Origin: Dysgonamonadaceae bacterium | Lineage (GTDB): Bacteria; Bacteroidota; Bacteroidia; Bacteroidales; Azobacteroidaceae | NCBI GenBank assembly: GCA_031269685.1 | Contig: JAISYU010000054.1 | Location: 1-39,040, forward strand | Direction: 5' to 3' | DNA: 39,040 nt | Part shown: positions 16,894-38,785 of the stretch, in pieces | How positions within the stretch are numbered: the stretch's first letter is position 1 | Layout: every line of letters begins with the position of its first letter | Position numbers and translations under genes: made by a program | Notes under the pieces: generated by a model | Told to the model about the DNA's origin: nothing | The model's input: the letters and a program-made list of their open reading frames with translations, nothing else | Databases searched by the model: none

Positions 16894-17627
16894 TATAAAA
16901 ACATTTCTGTTTTTTGCATCAATTCTTCGCCCTTTACATACTTGTCATCGGGATTGTATCCAAAGAGTTCAAGAAAAGCGGCTTTATTGTCTATATTGTC
17001 AAAAGAAACCATAAAATAATTTTCACTTGCTTGCCAGTTATCTTTTATGCTCTCTTTGATGTTTTGCTTTAATTCCTTCATTGCTTCCCTACGTTCTTCG
17101 TAAGGTTTGTCAATGTCAGCCATGTCCTTTTCTATGAGGTCTATCGGTGCACTTTTAAGAGCCAACGATGTTTGAGCCGCAATCAAGTTCATATCCCCAT
17201 CATCCAAGCCCGCCAATTTGTAATCTATCTCAGGTAGTATTGCCCCCAGCAAGTCCAAGTCAAACGCCCCTTGTACAGTTTTTGAGTTCATGAAGACATT
17301 TTGTTCTTTTTCTGTCTTCTCATCCAAATTGACCTTTTCAACCTTTATATCGTAATCCGCCTCTGTCGTTCCGTCATAACCGTTCAGAATATCCAGCGCC
17401 TTTAACCGTTTGTGTCCACTTATCAGCGTGCCGGTACGTTCATTCCAAACGATACCGCCGCAAAAGGCTACCCGCTTAAAATTCTTTTTGAGTTCGGAAA
17501 CTACATTGGCATTTTCTTTACGTGGATTGTAAGGTGCGATCTGTATCTGGCTACGTTTTATTACAACCGTTTCGGATTCGTTATAATTTCGCTTCTGCTC
17601 TTTTCCTTTCGTGATATTCATATTCAA
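16893..17627 (-). CDS. ParB-like nuclease/NTPase-domain protein
   Basis: A 244-aa protein. Residues of about 22-120 match the ParB/Srx fold: VIKRSQIQIAPYNPRKE, the helix VVSELKKNFKRV, GGIVWNERTGTLISGHKRLKAL (the ISGHKRL motif, GxxR-like) and KEQNVFMNSKTVQG. No HTH DNA-binding domain of plasmid ParB type follows. Phage proteins of this build typically lie beside the terminase genes and a PAPS-reductase-like gene, as here: it overlaps that gene by about 47 bp (fewer if the ATG at 17621 is used). Role unknown; a DNA end-processing or DNA-modification partner of the PAPS-reductase-like enzyme is a fair inference. Confidence 0.75.
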   Translation of the reverse strand: MNMNITKGKEQKRNYNESETVVIKRSQIQIAPYNPRKENANVVSELKKNFKRVAFCGGIVWNERTGTLISGHKRLKALDILNGYDGTTEADYDIKVEKVNLDEKTEKEQNVFMNSKTVQGAFDLDLLGAILPEIDYKLAGLDDGDMNLIAAQTSLALKSAPIDLIEKDMADIDKPYEERREAMKELKQNIKESIKDNWQASENYFMVSFDNIDNKAAFLELFGYNPDDKYVKGEELMQKTEMFL

Positions 17628-18285
17628 ATACTTTTTGTTCTGTTATTGGAAACATCTTTATTACTTTTCGGTAATCATCATGATGATTACGCTTGCACCA
17701 TAAAAGAAAATTTATATCATTTACCGCACAACCGGAAGATGCTGAACCCACCTTCCCATAATTTATCGGCTCAATAAGATCGTTTTGCCTGATATATGCC
17801 AGCACATCCCTGTTTTTCCATTCGGACAGAGGATAGCATTTTTTTGTCTTTTCACAAATACAATTACCCTCGTATGTCCGTAACATTAACCGCCTGTTTA
17901 GCCCGTCCGATTGCTTGAAACCATAAAAAACCCATTCGATGCCCGTTTTCATACGGATAGAATCGGTTATTTTTCCGAGTGTGTAGTTTTTAACTTTGCC
18001 GTTTTGCCTCATTCCGAGATTGCCTGATTTTATGTAACTTGGCAAAGCATAGTGTAATGTCTGTATGAATTGTACACTATACCGATTTTCCGCCCACAAG
18101 ATATATTTATTAATGTGTTCCAGATTCGGAACAATGTACATATATACGCAAATAATATCTTTAAAGTGTGGGCGAATCATATCTAATAAGGCTATACTGT
18201 CTTTACCCGTTGCAGAGTGAAACAATATAGCCTTATCTGTCGCCGAAGCAACTTTTAAAATTGCCTCAAAGGGTGACATCACCAT
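17581..18285 (-). CDS. PAPS-reductase-like ATP pyrophosphatase
   Basis: A 234-aa protein with the PP-loop SATGKDS at residues 24-30 (ILFHSATGKDSIALLDMI), as in PAPS reductases and N-type ATP pyrophosphatases. Downstream are GIEWVFYGFKQSDGLNRRLML (substrate-loop region), CICEKTKKCYPLSEWKNRDVLAYI and SASSGCAVND. It activates a substrate by adenylation. In phages such proteins are suspected to act on DNA or nucleotides rather than in sulfate reduction. The ATG is preceded by AGGAGAAAG, a rare Shine-Dalgarno-like run for this genome, and overlaps the stop of a 25-aa ORF. Confidence 0.82.
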   Translation of the reverse strand: MVMSPFEAILKVASATDKAILFHSATGKDSIALLDMIRPHFKDIICVYMYIVPNLEHINKYILWAENRYSVQFIQTLHYALPSYIKSGNLGMRQNGKVKNYTLGKITDSIRMKTGIEWVFYGFKQSDGLNRRLMLRTYEGNCICEKTKKCYPLSEWKNRDVLAYIRQNDLIEPINYGKVGSASSGCAVNDINFLLWCKRNHHDDYRKVIKMFPITEQKVFEYEYHERKRAEAKL

Positions 18286-19788: not shown

Positions 19789-19815
19789 GCCGCACCCTTA
19801 TGCAAGGGTTGCGGC
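19789..19815 (-). terminator. Strong hairpin across the amidoligase stop codon
   Basis: Minus strand GCCGCA(A)CCCTT-GCAT-AAGGG-TGCGGC pairs 11 bp with one bulged A, then TTTAAC. The stop codon TAA lies in the loop/stem. The T tract is short, so it is a weak terminator, attenuator or RNA-processing/stabilising site that could set the ratio of ligase to the downstream SH3 and glutaminase genes. Confidence 0.5.
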
Positions 19816-20661
19816 GCGGTTAATAAAATATTGTTTGTCGCTCTCTGTTATAAATGGTATTGCTGAGATTTCTGTTACAGGCTCTGTTAATTGTGTCAAT
19901 TTTGAAAACTCAATTAACAGAATTACAAAGCGTAACCACATCGCAATTTTATCAGGGTCGGTTGTGCCTTGATGCTGTCTAAATTCAAGGGTGTTGTGTC
20001 TCAAATATGAAACAGGGTTTAACTTAAAATACCGATCTGACCGAAACAAGTTAGATATTTCGGCACGATCAGCGGTCGCTTTGATGCTTTCGACGCTTAT
20101 TGTTTTAAGAGACTTACAATAAATATTGTCGTTTGCCCGCCTCGACTTTGACATAAACTTGTCAATTACACCTTCTAAATAATAGTAGTTGACGAAGACG
20201 TTCTTGTAATGAACATCATCTACATTTTGCAGCCCGATATGCACGTGCAAGCCACATGTTTTATTGACTTTTGCACCCGCTTCGTTAAGAGCGTCACAAA
20301 CTTTCTGTAATTTGTTCAGGTCTCTCTCTGATTTTAAGACAGGCGTAACGACTTCTAAACAATTACCATCAGCACCACCTGATATAGAACTGTCAGACAC
20401 CACTTTAAAATGGTTTTTCGATTTGTGGTTGTAATTTTCAAAAACCACTGCTACGCCTTTCTTTGACGCAATTTGAATAAATTGCTCTTTTTTTACGTTG
20501 AAACATTCTATTTCAACGCCCGCCGTTACGAAACGACTTTTGTCGTAATCGTTTATTATACGGCTCGCTTCTCTGGCTGTTAAGCCGATCTCAACAAGCG
20601 ATTTGCGCTTGTTTTGGTTTGTGTCTGTGCTTGTTAGCACGTTTTTAATTCTTTCGTTCAT
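19798..20661 (-). CDS. Amidoligase (GS-like COOH-NH2 ligase)
   Basis: A 287-aa protein with the Amidoligase_2 pattern: TAGVEIECF (G-x-E-x-E strand), VVSDSSISGG (D-x-S), CLEVVTPVL (E-V-x-T-P), TCGLHVHIG (G-L-H-V-H) and LRHNTLEFRQHQGTTDPDKIAMWLRF (EFRQHxGT, then W). These are metal/ATP-binding and substrate residues of the glutamine-synthetase-like amidoligases that join a carboxylate to an amine on peptides, proteins or small molecules. The first about 40 residues are helical and charged and may guide substrate binding. It is the first gene of an operon with its own promoter, followed by the SH3-barrel and class II glutaminase genes; the target is unknown. Confidence 0.82.
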   Translation of the reverse strand: MNERIKNVLTSTDTNQNKRKSLVEIGLTAREASRIINDYDKSRFVTAGVEIECFNVKKEQFIQIASKKGVAVVFENYNHKSKNHFKVVSDSSISGGADGNCLEVVTPVLKSERDLNKLQKVCDALNEAGAKVNKTCGLHVHIGLQNVDDVHYKNVFVNYYYLEGVIDKFMSKSRRANDNIYCKSLKTISVESIKATADRAEISNLFRSDRYFKLNPVSYLRHNTLEFRQHQGTTDPDKIAMWLRFVILLIEFSKLTQLTEPVTEISAIPFITESDKQYFINRAATLA

Positions 20662-20709
20662 TCTTGTTCTTATTTAATTTATTAAATATTTATCTTTTAT
20701 AAAGAGCCG

Positions 20710-20741
20710 CAAATTAAATACAAATATTTAACATGAACAAA
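20710..20741 (-). promoter_or_regulatory. Promoter of the amidoligase operon
   Basis: Minus strand TTTG (20738-20741), a 20-bp spacer, and TTAATTTG (20710-20717), one mismatch from the -7 consensus TAnnTTTG, about 50 bp before the ATG at 20661. Confidence 0.5.
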
Positions 20742-20850
20742 TCATTTTTATGTTATAAAACATGTTTTTATATAACTCACTATTATTCAATGAAATAAAA
20801 TTTTGTTAAAGTTTGTTAAATATTAAGTGTATAGGTATTATGAGTACCCT

Positions 20851-20884
20851 ATTGTATAACTGTCAAGTTATTTTTGTACCTTTG
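20851..20884 (+). promoter_or_regulatory. Promoter of the 80-aa HTH gene
   Basis: Plus strand TACCTTTG (20877-20884), followed by CAG, is a full -7 match. A partial -33 (ATTG, 20851-20854) lies 22 bp upstream, slightly long. The ATG at 20918 follows after about 33 bp. Confidence 0.55.
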
Positions 20885-20917
20885 CAGCCTGAAACAAGTA
20901 ATTAAACTTATATAAAT

Positions 20918-21160
20918 ATGAAGTTAAGAATCGCAGATATTTTAAGAGAAAAAAAACTAACCCAAAAAGAGTTAGCTGCACAAATCAAAATGTCAGAGGT
21001 AGGGTTGTCACAGAGGTTAAACGGCAACCCAACAAAAAACACTCTGGAGAAAATCGCCGCAGCGCTTGACGTTACAGTCACAGAACTTTTCGAGCAACCG
21101 GCAAAGTACGAAATTTCTTGCCCTCACTGTGGAAAGCCGATAAAAGTCTCGGCTGGGTGA
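20918..21160 (+). CDS. XRE-family HTH regulator with C-terminal zinc-knuckle piece
   Basis: An 80-aa protein. Residues 1-60 are a Cro/CI HTH (LREKKLTQKELAAQIKMSEVGLSQRLNGNPTKNTLEKIAAALDVTVTELF) and the end is a single CPHCGKPIKV knuckle. One CxxC is only half a zinc site, so zinc binding would need a dimer. It is the only rightward gene between 2 and 38 kb, has its own promoter and lies between the end of the early operon and the start of the amidoligase operon. It may control that operon through the shared divergent region. Confidence 0.85.
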   Translation: MKLRIADILREKKLTQKELAAQIKMSEVGLSQRLNGNPTKNTLEKIAAALDVTVTELFEQPAKYEISCPHCGKPIKVSAG

Positions 21161-21176
21161 GATTCTTTACAGGGAC

Positions 21177-21207
21177 AAAAAAAGCCCACCCCGATTGGAG
21201 TGAGCTT
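21177..21207 (-). terminator. Intrinsic terminator of the early operon
   Basis: Minus strand AAGCTCACTCC-AATC-GGGGTGGGCTT gives an 11-bp stem (two G-U) followed by seven T. On the plus strand the same arms have two A-C mismatches and no T run, so it serves the leftward transcript ending after the VRR-NUC gene. Confidence 0.8.
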
Positions 21208-21284
21208 CAAATAAATCATATATCCCCCTTCCAGGATAAAGTTTTTATTTGCAGAGAAAATCCAGTAGGACGTTAAATGATTGT

Positions 21285-32644: not shown

Positions 32645-33415
32645 TTAAAAATCGGGCTGTGCGCCTTGTTGTTGTTGCGCTTCAGTTCTTGGGGCTTCAG
32701 TTCTTGGGGCTTCAGTTCGTGTGTTTGGCTCAGAAGCTTCTGCAAAACTTAAAGGCGTTCCGGTGTTTGCTTTCTCCGAGACTTCCTGTTTGACCTTTTC
32801 TGTGACATCTTCGTAGGGTACATCCTGCACCCCCTGCTCTTCGGCTGTGTACATTGCGCCGAGTTGCGTCGGAAACGCTTCCCGCAACGCCTGTACGATA
32901 GCAGTTTTCCTTATCATCGTGGACTTTTTTTCATTCCACAATGCCTGTTTCTTGTCGTATTCAGAGAGAGACACACGTGATACATACGGGAATTTGCGAT
33001 CCTTGCGGTGCACCTCAGCCCATCCGCCGAGCAATACATCAGTAGGAAGGCTGAAATTTCCCTCTACTTCTATAATGTCGTTGCCGCGCTTGATGATCAA
33101 TCCGGCTTTGAATCCGTCATACTCGGCGCATTGTTCGGCTCGTTTCATTAGCGCCTCTTTGCTGACAACCATCTGAGCCGGACTGTTGCCAAACTTTATT
33201 AAATAGGCTTCTTTTAAGAATGGGTTTAACTGATTGTATTTGCAGATGCAAATAAATTGTGTTAAATCCTGATCGGTGACTTTGCCGTCACCCTTTGTCA
33301 GGAAATCCCTTACTATCGGATATGACAATGTCACATCTTCACCTGCCACCTTATAAGTGGTTTTACCTCTGTCTTTGTCCTGCACAACAGGACTGTTTGT
33401 CTGTCTGTGTTCCAT
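32645..33415 (-). CDS. RecT/Bet-family single-strand annealing protein
   Basis: A 256-aa protein with the Bet/RecT core from about residue 45: LTQFICICKYNQLNPFLKEAYLIKFGN, AQMVVSKEALMKRAEQ, DGFKAGLIIKRGNDII, LLGGWAEVHRKDRKFPYVSRVSLSEYDK and STMIRKTAIVQALREAFPTQLGAMY. It anneals complementary strands during phage recombination. The C-terminal 50 residues are disordered and contain RTEAP repeats encoded by 15-bp tandem DNA repeats. It lies between the SMC-like ATPase and the MBL gene. Confidence 0.9.
   Translation of the reverse strand: MEHRQTNSPVVQDKDRGKTTYKVAGEDVTLSYPIVRDFLTKGDGKVTDQDLTQFICICKYNQLNPFLKEAYLIKFGNSPAQMVVSKEALMKRAEQCAEYDGFKAGLIIKRGNDIIEVEGNFSLPTDVLLGGWAEVHRKDRKFPYVSRVSLSEYDKKQALWNEKKSTMIRKTAIVQALREAFPTQLGAMYTAEEQGVQDVPYEDVTEKVKQEVSEKANTGTPLSFAEASEPNTRTEAPRTEAPRTEAQQQQGAQPDF
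32681..32721 (-). repeat. 15-bp tandem repeat in the RecT tail
   Basis: TTCAGTTCTTGGGGC repeats twice exactly (32681-32695, 32696-32710) with a third partial copy (TTCAGTTCGTG). It encodes RTEAP units in frame, so copy number could change tail length without a frameshift. Confidence 0.8.
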
Positions 33416-33426
33416 ATTAAACTATT

Positions 33427-35400
33427 TTAATTGATTGTAAGTTCTTTACATGAAGCGTCAACAATCAAATTGATTATTTGACTGTTAATCGGAGGTATCT
33501 CCGTAACGCTTTCTCGGTTGTCGATAAAGATAGGAGCGCAAGCGCCGTTGAAATCGCACAGGGTTTTTATTATATCCAACCCGATGTTTATTTTATCTGC
33601 GTTGTTGGTATCTAAAAACTTCGCGCCTGTTGCCTTGCTGATAAGGATGCAATCCGGCTTTTCTCCTCCGTTAATCTGCTGGGAAAACATCTTAAACCGT
33701 ACCAAATTGAATTTGAGATTTACGCGGCGTTCTACCTCGTTCATTTGTTCCTTTACCAATGAATCAGCAATAAACTCTTGCTTTTCGAGGTCGGCTTTTT
33801 GTTGCGCAAGGGCTTTTTCCTCTTTCAGTAGTTCGGCTTTCCTCTTGTTGTTGGCGTCGATTACGTCCTTTAATGAGAAATTCCGGTTTATGTTGTCTAA
33901 CAGCGTTTGCATTTCTCGCTTTTTTGCTGTCAGTTCGACATTGTCCGGCGTCGCAGGACGTGAGTTAAGCGATGCTTGCAGTTTGTCTATTTTTCCCTGA
34001 ATAACGTTGTATGCAGGTATATCAGAAGGCAATGTTGCTTCAAGCCTTGCAGGTGGGTTGGTGAGTTTTGCCCCGTATTGCTCTAATAGAGGTTTATTAG
34101 CCTCTATCTTGACGGTGATTGCCTCAATGTCGGCTTTCATTTCCTCATTGCGGCTCTCCAACTCCGTCTTGCGGGATGCAAAAGATTTGCCTTCAATGTT
34201 TATCTTTTGCAGAGAGGTTGCTCTTTGCTTCTCAAAGGCTTCCTTAGATTCAAGGATTTTATCCTCCGGATATTTTTGTCCGCAGGTCGGGCAAATCGCA
34301 TCGTCGTTTGGGTTATACTCTTTGGCGTTTTCATCCGTGTATTCCTTCCGTTTTGCGGTTAATTGAATATTCAAGTCCGCAATTTTTAGCAGGTTGGTAC
34401 GTATTCCTGCCTTAATATTCTCTATCTCCCGAAGGGAATTATCGTTCTGCCGCGTCAAAGTAGTATAAAGGGCTTCCGTTTCGTAATACCCTGCGTACTC
34501 TTTGTTATACGCTTCACGTTCTTCCTGCTGAACCTGGAAGATCGCCTGTTGCTGCTCGCTTTTCAGGGTGTTTATCTCTCCCTGAATTTTGAGTTGCGCT
34601 TCGTGTTCCTGTCGGCTTGCTTCTGAGACATTTTTAAGCGCGGCTTCTATGTCCTCCAATTCTTTTTGTGCTGCCTGCCGCTCGGCTTCGAGAGCAGCAA
34701 AATCCGGCGTTGCCGGCGTCGCCCTTGTTACCTCGTCAATGCGGGCGGGAATTAACTCCAAAGCCTCCTTGATTTTCTTTTTCCTTGCGGAAATCTCGGC
34801 TTTGTAATCCGCAAGGCTTTTGCCGGATAACTTTGCGAGCAGTTCTGTAAACTCGGCGCGGTCGTTGGCGATTTCTTCCAACGTTATGCTGCCCGCGATA
34901 CGCAGCAGCATCTCGCGTTGCACTTGCCAATCAAGGCGCGGGAAATGAAGCGGGTTGGTCAGCATACGGAACAAGTCCTCGCTGATAATATCATTTACCT
35001 TTGCCTTGTATTCGCTTTCCTTCAAAGGTACGCCGTTATAGAAATAGGACGTCGTATTCCCCTTTAATTCGGGCTCTGCTTTACCGCGTGGCGTTACCCA
35101 ATCTTCCGACAGAACGCGGCGGAGTTCTACCGTTTGCCCGTCCACGTCCAGCAGTGCCGTTACTTCGTGGTCAAGTCTCGGAATAACTTTGCCGGTTGTG
35201 TCGTTGGTTTTTATTCCGAACTTCGTGTCACTGTTACCGGCGGCATCCTTACCGAACAACACCCAGTTAAAGGCGTCTGCGATGGTGCTTTTGCCGGTAG
35301 CGTTTGCGCCGCGGACCTCCGTAACCTGTCCAAAATCTATTGTCAGGCTCTTAATGCCCTTGAAGTTTACGAGGTTCATTTGTTTAATCCCTACCTCCAT
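33427..35400 (-). CDS. SMC/SbcC/Rad50-like ATPase
   Basis: The start was moved from 35493 to the ATG at 35400 (MEVGIKQMNLVNFKGIKSLTIDF), 2 bp after the stop of the HTH gene. The 657-aa protein has Walker A GANATGKST (31-39), the AFNWVLFGKD helix, long coiled-coil arms on either side of a CPTCGQKYPEDK hook (about 390), and a C-terminal half-domain with the Walker B-like CAPIFIDNRESV and INLIVDAS. Such ATPases hold DNA ends and normally pair with an SbcD/Mre11 nuclease; none is encoded here, but an MBL-fold hydrolase and RecT follow. Probably phage recombination or end processing. Confidence 0.82.
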   Translation of the reverse strand: MEVGIKQMNLVNFKGIKSLTIDFGQVTEVRGANATGKSTIADAFNWVLFGKDAAGNSDTKFGIKTNDTTGKVIPRLDHEVTALLDVDGQTVELRRVLSEDWVTPRGKAEPELKGNTTSYFYNGVPLKESEYKAKVNDIISEDLFRMLTNPLHFPRLDWQVQREMLLRIAGSITLEEIANDRAEFTELLAKLSGKSLADYKAEISARKKKIKEALELIPARIDEVTRATPATPDFAALEAERQAAQKELEDIEAALKNVSEASRQEHEAQLKIQGEINTLKSEQQQAIFQVQQEEREAYNKEYAGYYETEALYTTLTRQNDNSLREIENIKAGIRTNLLKIADLNIQLTAKRKEYTDENAKEYNPNDDAICPTCGQKYPEDKILESKEAFEKQRATSLQKINIEGKSFASRKTELESRNEEMKADIEAITVKIEANKPLLEQYGAKLTNPPARLEATLPSDIPAYNVIQGKIDKLQASLNSRPATPDNVELTAKKREMQTLLDNINRNFSLKDVIDANNKRKAELLKEEKALAQQKADLEKQEFIADSLVKEQMNEVERRVNLKFNLVRFKMFSQQINGGEKPDCILISKATGAKFLDTNNADKINIGLDIIKTLCDFNGACAPIFIDNRESVTEIPPINSQIINLIVDASCKELTIN

Positions 35401-35402
35401 AC

Positions 35403-35684
35403 TTACCCCTCCAAAATCTTTTTTACGTCCGACATCCGATACATGCGTTTGCCGCCCACTTCTATGGAGCGCAAATAATTTTCTTTGTGCCACCGCCAGA
35501 GGGTGGAGAGATCTACGGACAACGTTTTCGCCGTCCGCTTGCGAGTAAGGTACTGTTCGGCGGGCTGTTCCTCCTTTTCGTAAATGGAACGCGCGCCGTC
35601 CAGAATCCTGTTCGCAAAATCATTCAGTTGTTCGCCCGTGAGCGAGATAACGATGTTCTGTTTGTTTAAAATTTCTTCGATCAT
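35403..35684 (-). CDS. Small HTH (excisionase/MerR-like) DNA-binding protein
   Basis: A 93-aa protein. The second half QYLTRKRTAKTLSVDLSTLWRWHKENYLRSIEVGGKRMYRMSDVKKIL is an HTH_17/excisionase-type winged helix. The first half (LTGEQLNDFANRILDGARSIYEK) is helical. Small proteins like this are common in Bacteroides mobile elements as excisionases or local regulators. It is the first gene of the recombination set and lies directly behind the structured leader. Confidence 0.7.
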   Translation of the reverse strand: MIEEILNKQNIVISLTGEQLNDFANRILDGARSIYEKEEQPAEQYLTRKRTAKTLSVDLSTLWRWHKENYLRSIEVGGKRMYRMSDVKKILEG

Positions 35685-35700
35685 CTCTTTTTAATTAAAA

Positions 35701-35773
35701 ATCCCGCTCGGCTGCCCTCTTGCGAGGTGGTCAGTACAGCCTTGCGGGTTTTATTCATTTTAACGCCTGACCA
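35701..35773 (-). ncRNA. Structured leader/attenuator with GNRA tetraloop and pseudoknot potential
   Basis: On the minus strand, 5'-CCCGC AA GGCTG (9-nt internal loop) CCTC-GCAA-GAGG G CAGCC GA GCGGG-ATTTTTAATT. Three nested stems close on a GCAA tetraloop, followed by a U-rich run 17 bp before the HTH start codon. The internal loop CTGACCA (35728-35734) is a perfect 7-nt complement of TGGTCAG at 35767-35773 just upstream, allowing a pseudoknot or an alternative antiterminator fold. The GNRA loop exists only on the minus strand, so RNA function is favoured. Confidence 0.55.
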
Positions 35774-35789
35774 TCGCGCTAAATATTCT

Positions 35790-35851
35790 AAAAAAGCAGC
35801 CGGAAAACATCCCCGTGATGTTCATTAATAGACGGTAGCCTTCGGGCTGCT
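35790..35851 (-). terminator. Terminator-like structured element
   Basis: Minus strand AGCAGCC (35845-35851) pairs 7 bp with GGCTGCT (35795-35801), followed by six T. Inside are a hairpin AACATC-ACGGG-GATGTT (35806-35822) and a competing AGCC-CGAA-GGCT stem that would disrupt the terminator. This is the arrangement of an attenuator. Confidence 0.5.
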
Positions 35852-35857
35852 GTGGGT

Positions 35858-35959
35858 ATAAAGAGGTACACTTCGAATCGTGTAATACCATCCACGTTGT
35901 TCTCGGTATCCTACTTGTCCTCCTTAAACAGTACCGACTTTCAGAAAATACCTCTTTAT
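35858..35959 (-). ncRNA. Hairpin-enclosed non-coding domain, unknown
   Basis: An 11-bp perfect inverted repeat, ATAAAGAGGTA and TACCTCTTTAT (plus-strand copies 35858-35868 and 35949-35959), encloses 80 nt without an ORF. That interior includes ACAC-GATTCGAA-GTGT (tRNA T-arm-like but with an 8-nt loop) and alternative stems CGGTA/TACCG and ATACC/GGTAT. It lies between the tRNA and the attenuator and is best read as part of one structured RNA of about 260 nt. Confidence 0.4.
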
Positions 35960-35964
35960 GTCAG

Positions 35965-36036
35965 TTGGGGATAGCAGATTCGAACTGCTGCCTGCGACCG
36001 ATGAGGTTCGCCGTGTTACCACTACACTAATCCCCT
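35965..36036 (-). tRNA. tRNA-like gene, unusual anticodon arm (probably CAT)
   Basis: Minus strand. The acceptor stem has GGGGAT paired with ATCCCC (6 bp; the 1-72 position is A-A). The remaining parts are T8, a D-arm GTGT-AGTGGTA-ACAC with the GG pair, an anticodon arm, variable AGGC, and a T-arm AGCAG-TTCGAAT-CTGCT with a perfect T-loop. CCA is not encoded. The anticodon arm GCGAACCTCATCGGTCGC is 18 nt, one too many: a bulged A gives stem GCGA-C/GTCGC and loop CTCATCG with anticodon CAT; otherwise an 8-nt loop. Isotype therefore uncertain. Confidence 0.6.
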
Positions 36037-36130
36037 GTGCGTGTCTTCCCACGCTGCCAGGAGGGTTCCACTTTAACAAGGCTGACGTTAAACCCTCCGA
36101 ACGACACCAGCGCTGCCAGATTTCTTTATG
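36037..36130 (-). other. Structured non-coding gap 5' of the tRNA
   Basis: No ORF. On the minus strand GGAGGGTTTAAC...GTTAAAGTGGAACCCTCC forms a long hairpin (8 + 6 bp with an internal loop), flanked by direct repeats CTGGCAGCG and complementary GTGTC/GACAC. CTGACATAAAGA occurs at its start (about 36124-36135) and again right after the tRNA (about 35953-35964), suggesting repeated RNA-flanking units. Confidence 0.45.
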
Positions 36131-36349
36131 TCAGGGGAGTTGTTCCGCGTCCCCCTTTTCCGTTAGGAATTTACCTAACTTGCTTCTCCAAAACTCATCT
36201 GTCCAGCCCTTGTTCTGGGCGTGGATTAGTAGCCACGTGGAAATACAAAACCAGGCAAAGCCTATCACCGCCGCACATAGCGGCTCTTCGATCGCCAACC
36301 CCATGAGGCTGACGAACCAGTTGATTTGAATTAATGCTGCTTTTTTCAT
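36131..36349 (-). CDS. Small membrane protein (72 aa)
   Basis: A 72-aa protein with a first hydrophobic stretch (IQINWFVSLMGLAI) and a clear second one (LCAAVIGFAWFCISTWLLIHA), then a charged amphipathic C-terminus (GWTDEFWRSKLGKFLTEKGDAEQLP). One or two membrane spans. Its stop is the TGA of the CTGACATAAAGA repeat ahead of the structured region. Unknown function; superinfection exclusion or holin-like roles are possible but unsupported. Confidence 0.55.
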   Translation of the reverse strand: MKKAALIQINWFVSLMGLAIEEPLCAAVIGFAWFCISTWLLIHAQNKGWTDEFWRSKLGKFLTEKGDAEQLP

Positions 36350-36370: not shown

Positions 36371-37063
36371 TTATTCCTCGATCGACCGGATTTTCTCCGC
36401 GCCATAGGCATTGCGCACAAGGTTAAAAAATTCACTTAGGGAGATTTCATCCCTGTCCAAATCTAAATTGTGACTTTTTGCGAACTCCATCCGTCCTAAT
36501 TCGCAAGAACCCGTCAATCTGCCGTGCCAATTAAAGAAGTACCGTACGGGATACTTCTTTGTTGGCGATACTTCTGCCTTGAATAACGCGGCAGTCTCCT
36601 CAAACGAAGCTGAAGAGAAGTATTTATTCTCAGCGTCCTGCAAGGCTTTCCTCGCGGTTTCCCCGTGCGCAAAGTAGCCATTGTATTTTGCAATAAAGGC
36701 TTCTTTAAATGTGAAATCATCCTGCACAATACCGACCTTTGCGAGGTCTCCCTTTACGGAGAAAAACACACATGGGATGTTGTCCACATACCAGACATCC
36801 CAACCATTTAGTTTGGTCAGGACGGATTTGTAGTCGGTTTTGTATCCGCGAGCCTTAAACTCGCTATTGCCAGAGCCATTGCCATAACCATCGCCATCGC
36901 CATAGCCAGAGCCATAGCCATAGCCATCGCCATAGCCAGAGCCATCGCCAGAGCCATAGCCAGAGCCATTGCCATTGTCATAGCCATAGCCATAGCCATT
37001 GCCAGAGCCAGAGCCATCGCTGCGCCCGCTACCGGACAGGAAGATTTTTATTGAATCTTCCAT
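36371..37063 (-). CDS. Glycine-repeat protein with C-terminal globular domain (DUF7666-like)
   Basis: Start moved from 37174 to the ATG at 37063 (MEDSIKIFLSGSGRSDGSG), a 16-bp overlap with the upstream gene. Residues of about 10-68 are a low-complexity run of GYG/GSG/GDG/GNG. The rest (GWDVWYVDNIPCVFFSVKGDLAKVGIV ... NGYFAHGETARKALQDAENK ... FNWHGRLTGSCELGRMEFAKSHNLDLD ... SEFFNLVRNAYGAEKI) is globular and fits the DUF7666-type domain found with such repeats in gut phages; a WHxxLTGSCxxGR motif stands out. Function unknown. The repeat is in frame and could vary in length. Confidence 0.65.
   Translation of the reverse strand: MEDSIKIFLSGSGRSDGSGSGNGYGYGYDNGNGSGYGSGDGSGYGDGYGYGSGYGDGDGYGNGSGNSEFKARGYKTDYKSVLTKLNGWDVWYVDNIPCVFFSVKGDLAKVGIVQDDFTFKEAFIAKYNGYFAHGETARKALQDAENKYFSSASFEETAALFKAEVSPTKKYPVRYFFNWHGRLTGSCELGRMEFAKSHNLDLDRDEISLSEFFNLVRNAYGAEKIRSIEE
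36869..37020 (-). repeat. Hexamer-based tandem repeat (GCCATA/GCCATC/GCCAGA)
   Basis: About 150 bp of degenerate 6-bp units on the plus strand encode the glycine-rich run. All units are 6 bp, so gain or loss keeps the frame. Slippage-prone. Confidence 0.85.
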
Positions 37064-37937: not shown

Positions 37938-37969
37938 TTTGTCACGCAAGAAACTTTTTAGTATCTTTG
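37938..37969 (+). promoter_or_regulatory. Rightward promoter (repressor side of the switch)
   Basis: TTTG (37938-37941), a 20-bp spacer, TATCTTTG (37962-37969): a complete Bacteroides -33/-7 consensus. Predicted start near 37975, giving a leader of about 160 nt to the repressor ATG at 38135. Confidence 0.8.
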
Positions 37970-38025
37970 CCGTTTGTTTGTGTTTTTGTTTTGCTTTGTT
38001 TTTATATGCATCACAAAACACGCCG

Positions 38026-38057
38026 CAAAGGTAATTCATTTGAATTAAACAACCAAA
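38026..38057 (-). promoter_or_regulatory. Leftward early promoter (Cro side of the switch)
   Basis: Minus strand TTTG (38054-38057), a 20-bp spacer, TACCTTTG (38026-38033): again a complete consensus. Predicted start near 38020, so it faces the rightward promoter and the two transcripts overlap by about 45 nt at their starts. It drives the early operon. Confidence 0.8.
38032..38047. promoter_or_regulatory. Candidate operator 1
   Basis: TAATTCA-TT-TGAATTA is a palindrome with a 2-nt centre lying in the spacer and -7 edge of the leftward promoter. Binding there would block early transcription. Confidence 0.55.
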
Positions 38058-38079
38058 TTTTTTAATTGATTTGCATGAA

Positions 38080-38134: not shown

Positions 38135-38785
38135 ATGACAAATATAAATATGCGATTAAATTTAATACTTTCCAGACTTTTTGCTGGAAATGTATCGGAA
38201 TTTGCCCGAAAAAGTGGCATTCCTCAACCAACACTTAATAATATTGTTGCAAATAGATTAAACAAACCCTCGTCTGATAATCTAGAACGATTACTAAATT
38301 CAATGCCGGATATAAATGCCGAATGGCTAATAACCGGAGAAGGAGAAATGTTAAAAGATAATACAGTAAAAAGTTCTATGGAGGAGATAGTTTATGTTCC
38401 TCTGCTACCCATTTCGGCGCAAGGTGGCTCTTTGGATGATTTTGTAGTATCAGTAAAAGGAAGTGAATGTGAAAAAATTATATCTCCTATAAAAGGGGCT
38501 GACTGGGCAATAACCGTATCAGGTGATTCGATGGCGCCGGAATATCCTTCCGGTTCACAGATTTTAATAAAGAAGATAAACGAAAACGCATTTATCGATT
38601 GGGGGAAAGTCTATGTTTTAGACACCTGCAACGGAATTGTGATAAAAATATTAGTACCATCGGAACGGGAAGGATATATTAAATGCCTTTCGATTAATAA
38701 AGACGAAAGATATGCATCTTTCGAGATCTCGTTTAATGATATTCACGGAATATACCGAGTAATGCTTTGTATGTCAATGAAATAA
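38135..38785 (+). CDS. CI/LexA-like phage repressor (HTH plus S24 peptidase)
   Basis: A 216-aa protein. The N-terminal HTH covers about 1-65 (FARKSGIPQPTLNNIVANRLNKPSSDNLERLLNSMPDINAEWLITGEGEM). The S24 domain has nucleophile Ser132 in VSGDSMAPEYPSGS and a Lys171 dyad partner in GIVIKILV. The expected self-cleavage site near ISAQGG (about 93-98) is not the usual Ala-Gly. It keeps the prophage silent and should be cleaved with RecA help after DNA damage. It faces the Cro-like gene; the rightward promoter lies about 170 bp upstream. Confidence 0.9.
   Translation: MTNINMRLNLILSRLFAGNVSEFARKSGIPQPTLNNIVANRLNKPSSDNLERLLNSMPDINAEWLITGEGEMLKDNTVKSSMEEIVYVPLLPISAQGGSLDDFVVSVKGSECEKIISPIKGADWAITVSGDSMAPEYPSGSQILIKKINENAFIDWGKVYVLDTCNGIVIKILVPSEREGYIKCLSINKDERYASFEISFNDIHGIYRVMLCMSMK

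Follow-up and report, generated by a model that had tools for sequence, protein, structure and literature searches.

A probable moron-like non-coding RNA insert with tandem terminators that may punctuate the early operon of a Bacteroidota phage

What does 446 nt of non-coding DNA do ahead of the recombination genes in a phage early operon whose genes are otherwise closely packed? The stretch of DNA analysed (39,040 bp, "the window") is one contig of a 125-contig, 2.2-Mb metagenome bin and is a temperate phage of Bacteroidota. Its early operon occupies the minus strand, divergent from the S24/HTH repressor gene, and carries small regulators, an HTH protein, an SbcC-like ATPase, RecT, a metallo-hydrolase, a KilAC antirepressor and DnaD-like and DnaB-like replication proteins; the portal, terminase and head genes lie further left. 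We define "insert" as the non-coding interval at 36130-35685 (minus strand), which exceeds every other gap in the early operon and is separated from the early promoter by five small genes. Our reading of the sequence, held with moderate confidence, is that this interval is a non-coding RNA insert, lineage-specific and moron-like, whose tandem terminators punctuate an early operon of the lambda-pL kind.

A single promoter was detected for the genes on either side of the insert. On the minus strand of the window, only the site with its -7 box at 38033 matches the consensus at 10/10, and the consensus scan found no further minus-strand promoter of at least 9/10 downstream of it before 21942. None was detected behind T2, the second of the two terminators described below, and ahead of the HTH gene. 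With the single detected promoter 2.2 kb upstream and none detected past T2, expression of the recombination genes appears to rely on read-through; the promoter calls are simple consensus matches, and an unrecognised promoter within the insert could supply the HTH gene. The interval between the repressor gene and the early operon (37955-38060) contains two divergent perfect Bacteroidota promoters, as is typical of a lysogeny switch.

A 267-aa ORF carries at 36869-37017 a six-base unit of the GCCATA type in 25 successive copies, which encode a Gly/Tyr/Ser/Asp-rich stretch. At the end of the early operon is a 623-nt gap on the minus strand (20662-21284) with a clean terminator (21205-21177, U7); the same gap holds a plus-strand ORF (20918-21160) and a late promoter-like site with the predicted transcript 5' end GCGGCTCTTTATAAAAG. 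Genes of cargo-like character, Amidoligase_2 and PAPS-reductase-domain genes (19798-20661 and 17581-18285), are found in the vicinity of this early/late boundary.

Read along the transcribed strand, the insert consists of a hairpin region, a tRNA, a domain closed by an 11-bp stem (RNA2), a terminator hairpin (T1), a 41-nt spacer and a second terminator hairpin (T2), at the positions given in Table 1. The first-pass annotation had described structured non-coding DNA between a tRNA and the recombination genes, with three consecutive structured elements on the transcribed strand: an 11-bp-closed domain, a 7-bp stem followed by T6, and a nested element with a GCAA tetraloop and a U run. All of the parts that it named are present in the sequence, and the three elements correspond to RNA2, T1 and T2. 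It had recognised no RNA class, in agreement with a Rfam search of 35600-36200 at E <= 5, which returned the tRNA alone and no T-box, riboswitch, leader or sRNA family. The 264-nt region that it covered folds with z = -3.8 relative to dinucleotide shuffles. This total folding energy and the 11-bp stem are weaker evidence than the terminator pair.

The 106-nt segment with the upstream hairpin is no more stable than its shuffles (z = +0.6). The 12-nt sequence CTGACATAAAGA occurs as a direct repeat, and its two copies, which begin at 36134 and 35964, flank the upstream hairpin region and the tRNA (35965-36134). The repeat is found in 0.4% of shuffles, yet such a repeat occurs in 11 of 166 other windows of the phage; it is possibly a trace of how the hairpin/tRNA part was inserted. 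A leader peptide was considered for a 43-aa ATG frame across T1 (35891-35760) and rejected, equally long frames being common by chance.

Table 1. Positions of the insert, its parts and its neighbours in the window.
Feature	Positions	Strand	Basis or remark
S24/HTH repressor	38135-38785	+	
Early-operon promoter TTTG-N20-TACCTTTG, Bacteroidota consensus	38026..38057, -7 box 38033	-	10/10 match; divergent from repressor promoter
Plus-strand promoter TTTG-N20-TATCTTTG	-7 box 37962	+	Perfect Bacteroidota match
Small hydrophobic ORF, 72 aa, last gene ahead of insert	36131..36349	-	ORF call; relatives' small membrane ORFs weakly similar (HMM E = 0.0065)
Direct repeat CTGACATAAAGA, 12 nt, copy 1	36123..36134	-	Overlaps stop codon of 72-aa ORF
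Hairpin GGAGGG-UUUAAC/GUUAAA-CCCUCC, upstream of tRNA	36060..36098	-	Predicted fold
Non-standard tRNA	35964..36036	-	Rfam tRNA 46.3 bits; ARAGORN tRNA-???
Direct repeat CTGACATAAAGA, 12 nt, copy 2	35953..35964	-	Immediately past tRNA
RNA domain (RNA2) closed by 11 perfect bp	35858..35959	-	Fold; z = -2.2; no Rfam match
T1, intrinsic-terminator hairpin	35790..35851	-	7+6+4 bp rod, -21.8 kcal/mol, U6
UGGUCAG, complement of unpaired T2 bulge	35767..35773	-	9/500 shuffles as good; absent from nested fold
T2, intrinsic-terminator hairpin	35697..35748	-	5+6+4 bp rod, -24.9 kcal/mol, U5
HTH protein, 93 aa, first gene past terminators	35403..35684	-	PHROG 66/2474, HTH_17
SbcC-like ATPase	33427..35493	-	PHROG 77, E 2.4e-62
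RecT recombinase	32645..33415	-	Pfam RecT, E 4.9e-42

T1 and T2 are far beyond chance and are the strongest evidence that the insert is structured. The 7-bp stem of T1 (AGCAGCC, 35851-35845, with GGCUGCU, 35801-35795) is followed by U6, and the predicted fold is a 17-bp rod; an inner stem (AACAUC/GAUGUU, 35822-35806) belongs to an alternative conformer. The nested element of T2 (35748-35703), with CCUC-GCAA-GAGG at 35727-35716 and then AUUUUU, is the strongest minus-strand terminator of the window. Both combine a stable hairpin with an adjoining U-run. Folded alone, T1 has z = -3.1 and T2 has z = -4.4 against dinucleotide shuffles, and in the ensemble of the whole 431-nt leader their stems pair with P of at least 0.84 and at least 0.99, respectively. 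The insert has two hairpins with dG <= -18 directly ahead of U5, compared with none in 400 shuffles, and the only strict terminators on either strand of the whole window are at 35795, 35701 and 14456. T2 is terminator-like on the plus strand too (-21.3 kcal/mol, U-run at 35749, TTTTATT). Matches to parts of T1 elsewhere were judged to be chance: a 36-nt match to the T1 loop in L003 lies within a coding region of a different genome, and AAAAAAGCAGC (36346-36336), an 11-nt complement of the T1 3' arm, is 535 nt off, at the start of the 72-aa ORF.

The rods might instead be processing and protection elements. RNase P/Z would then free the tRNA and split the mRNA in two, the rods would shield the upstream piece at its 3' end and the HTH-SbcC-RecT mRNA at its 5' end, and the U-runs would be incidental. 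The canonical acceptor and T arms of the tRNA, and rods that directly flank the spacer, favour such an arrangement, but we consider it unlikely given that U6 and U5 follow the rods immediately, beyond chance expectation.

The insert is predicted to encode a tRNA or tRNA-like RNA. Its Rfam tRNA score, 46.3 bits, compares with a gathering threshold of 29, its folding z is -2.3 against dinucleotide shuffles, and the cloverleaf has a canonical D arm (GUGU AGUGGUA ACAC) and T arm (AGCAG UUCGAAU CUGCU), with an acceptor of 6 bp plus A1.A72. The anticodon arm is regular solely with one bulged A (GCGA(A)C CUCAUCG GUCGC), its loop containing U33 and CAU; a regular 5-bp stem and 7-nt loop with an assignable anticodon is not found, and ARAGORN reports tRNA-???. 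The exact occurrence of GGGGATTAGTGTAGTGGTAACAC in both this tRNA and the phage tRNA-Gln of IMG/VR contig L184 indicates that the tRNA body is Gln-like. All three CAU-type tRNAs are present among the host tRNAs, so the phage tRNA fills no obvious gap. A suppressor tRNA was also considered and rejected: UGA stops 12 of 46 genes, and there is thus no sign of opal recoding. For comparison, the Azobacteroides phage ProJPt-Bp1, a phage of the same host group, likewise has a single Gln-type tRNA gene, which is a regular tRNA-Gln for the CAG codon (PMC5478533), whereas in the tRNA of the insert the anticodon stem carries a bulge and the loop contains CAU.

The first-pass annotation had gone further, suggesting riboswitch-like or tRNA-coupled control through alternative pairings of the two terminator-like stems ahead of the HTH, SMC and RecT genes. 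The stems hold up, but control of this kind is not supported. The inner stem of T1, which had been thought to compete with the terminator, costs 2 kcal/mol when forced and retains all 7 bp of the terminator stem; since the terminator base is intact in both conformers, the inner stem is no competitor of termination. The 7-nt long-range complement does exist, between UGGUCAG (35773-35767) and CUGACCA (35734-35728), but it targets the T2 bulge and no terminator arm, and a possible pseudoknot formed by this pairing would leave T2 closed. Duplex energies were compared with those of 500 shuffles, and no upstream segment convincingly pairs a terminator arm: with the intervals used for the T1 arms displaced by a few bases from the full arms, 400 shuffles were as good for the T1 5' arm, 132 for the T2 5' arm, 101 for the T2 3' arm and 16 for the T1 3' arm, the last not being compelling among five tests. 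The mutually exclusive antiterminator of an attenuator or riboswitch expression platform was not found. A leader in which a ligand or an uncharged tRNA picks between alternative stems might be read from the neighbouring tRNA gene, the two T1 conformers and the ability of UGGUCAG to pair the T2 bulge. With the terminator base kept in both conformers, stable terminator stems, no antiterminator, and neither a T-box nor a riboswitch in Rfam at E <= 5, we regard control of this kind as highly improbable.

RNA2 is closed by a perfect stem, AUAAAGAGGUA (35959-35949) with UACCUCUUUAU (35868-35858), that pairs with P of about 0.75-1.0 in the predicted leader ensemble. Such a stem was seen in 0.5% of shuffles; however, an equal inverted repeat occurs in 10 of 166 (6%) other 450-nt windows of the phage, and the stem is therefore taken as suggestive only, weaker evidence than it looks. 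Readings of RNA2 as a familiar motif were rejected. A boxA was considered for CUCUUUA in the closing stem (35865), but the rrn leaders of the host genus instead read GATCTTTGAAATTTTTCC; CUCUUUA has three occurrences in all on the transcribed strand, including 35865 and the start of the late operon at 20706. A tmRNA-like T arm, ACAC-GAUUCGAA-GUGU, would form a hairpin of P <= 0.01 with an 8-nt loop, and neither ARAGORN nor Rfam calls a tmRNA.

RNA2 or another signal could nonetheless make the terminators a regulated attenuator, serving, in the manner of HK022 put or of a protein-dependent antitermination site, as an element in cis or a binding site through which polymerase gets past T1 and T2, in a timed switch to the recombination genes. 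Tandem terminators in an operon with no downstream promoter are the substrate of antitermination systems (PMC9378689, PMC8955417); the closing stem of RNA2 is predicted to be well populated, and with RNA2 located past the tRNA and ahead of T1, tRNA processing would leave it attached to polymerase. The put sites of phage HK022, which act in cis and need no phage protein for antitermination, are likewise structured RNA of the early transcript, upstream of terminators: two stem-loops of ~70 nt near the early promoters, putL just downstream and putR about 270 nt away (PMC9378689). RNA2, a candidate by its structure, differs in being about 100 nt long with one long closing stem and in lying 2.1 kb from the promoter. 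This distance, together with terminator arms that have no alternative pairing, the absence of a Rfam match, a z of only -2.2 and the failure of the boxA reading against the host-genus rrn leaders, makes a timed switch doubtful. Less likely still is the more specific proposal that Bacteroidota phages have in RNA2 a new cis-acting RNA which, perhaps jointly with the tRNA, governs T1/T2 read-through to the recombination genes.

The two gene types that border the insert abut in related loci. Relatives of the SbcC-like ATPase with 51-62% identity were found in termite-gut Bacteroidales bins and IMG/VR. Upstream of SbcC, 15 related loci combine a small hydrophobic ORF with an HTH ORF, and in all 15 the two abut (-17 to +6 nt). 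Here they are 446 nt apart, and the interval is therefore best understood as an insertion in a single lineage. The HTH protein of the window clearly resembles the L096 HTH (53% identity over 47 aa); the 72-aa ORF is weakly similar to the relatives' ORFs, so the insertion point rests on synteny. In none of 47 related loci do the 600 nt upstream of SbcC contain a terminator with dG <= -18. Searches for the insert among 50,697 phage and 72,556 plasmid records (blastn), in 97 relatives and 393 genomes of the order (DNA search), in three exact-pattern scans of IMG/VR, one of them for the L013 hairpin, and in all fetched loci (blastn, nhmmer) turned up no homologue and yielded just tRNA parts and chance matches.

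One relative, L013/L096, has tRNA-like elements of its own just upstream of its hydrophobic ORF. At L013:10791-11275 (G028:C57) there are three copies of a hairpin of the CTGTYTCGRTGCGAATCGCGGCAG type, two of them followed by a tRNA-like element. These elements (GGGCAG..CUGCCC, ~125 nt; GGGUA..UACCC, ~45 nt) have an acceptor and a T arm but form no regular cloverleaf; they are not called by ARAGORN, and Rfam gives a tmRNA T arm alone (18.5 bits). A tRNA with a bulged anticodon stem here and tRNA-like elements at nearly the same place in a relative suggest that this spot collects RNA cargo.

Phage morons are additional segments of DNA that separate genes adjacent to each other in relatives, with a terminator at the end. 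The insert likewise lies between abutting gene types and ends in terminators, and it differs from morons in encoding RNA alone and in lacking a promoter that can be recognised as its own: neither type of consensus promoter was found inside it. It might be a plain tRNA gene with a double terminator that leaves the downstream genes unaffected, these using an unrecognised promoter of their own. A terminator end is classic for morons, and tRNA genes are known in phages of the host genus (PMC5478533), but only 12 nt separate the U-run of T2 from the ATG of the HTH gene and they contain no consensus promoter, which makes this explanation quite improbable.

Most of the observation is accounted for by the ordinary part of the locus, a tRNA with two terminators behind it in an early operon, and we assign the insert to no named regulatory RNA family. 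If it is the lineage-specific RNA insert that we favour, transcription from the 38033 promoter would run through the five small genes and the insert and then into the HTH, SbcC-like, RecT and replication genes. The insert would yield a tRNA or tRNA-like RNA and end at T1 and T2, where most polymerases would stop, leaving a short transcript of the regulators and the tRNA. Read-through, either passive or switched by an antitermination factor, would supply the genes for recombination and replication. Both termination at T1/T2 in the host and read-through feeding the downstream genes are predictions of this model. By analogy with the early stop signals of lambda, the insert probably restricts expression of the downstream genes or delays it.

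Similar punctuation is known from other elements. In lambdoid phages, early terminators precede the delayed-early genes and are passed by antitermination (PMC9378689). Lambdoid early operons (lambda tL1/tR1, N-nut) likewise have intrinsic terminators in a single-promoter operon divergent from a repressor, placed between the first regulators and the recombination genes; the insert differs in having two terminators in tandem behind a tRNA, in its Bacteroidota host and in that no antitermination protein or site was identified. In long operons, terminators placed internally and combined with antitermination also serve to keep spurious transcription down (PMC8955417). Multi-terminator operons of the conAn type (pLS20 family) likewise carry intrinsic terminators within a long operon, whereas just two are found here, at one place. 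Little is known of how Bacteroidota phages control transcription, the literature consulted describing termination-antitermination for lambdoid phages and Gram-positive elements, and a single-promoter early operon with tandem terminators before its recombination genes is a concrete place to ask about antitermination in Bacteroidota phages.
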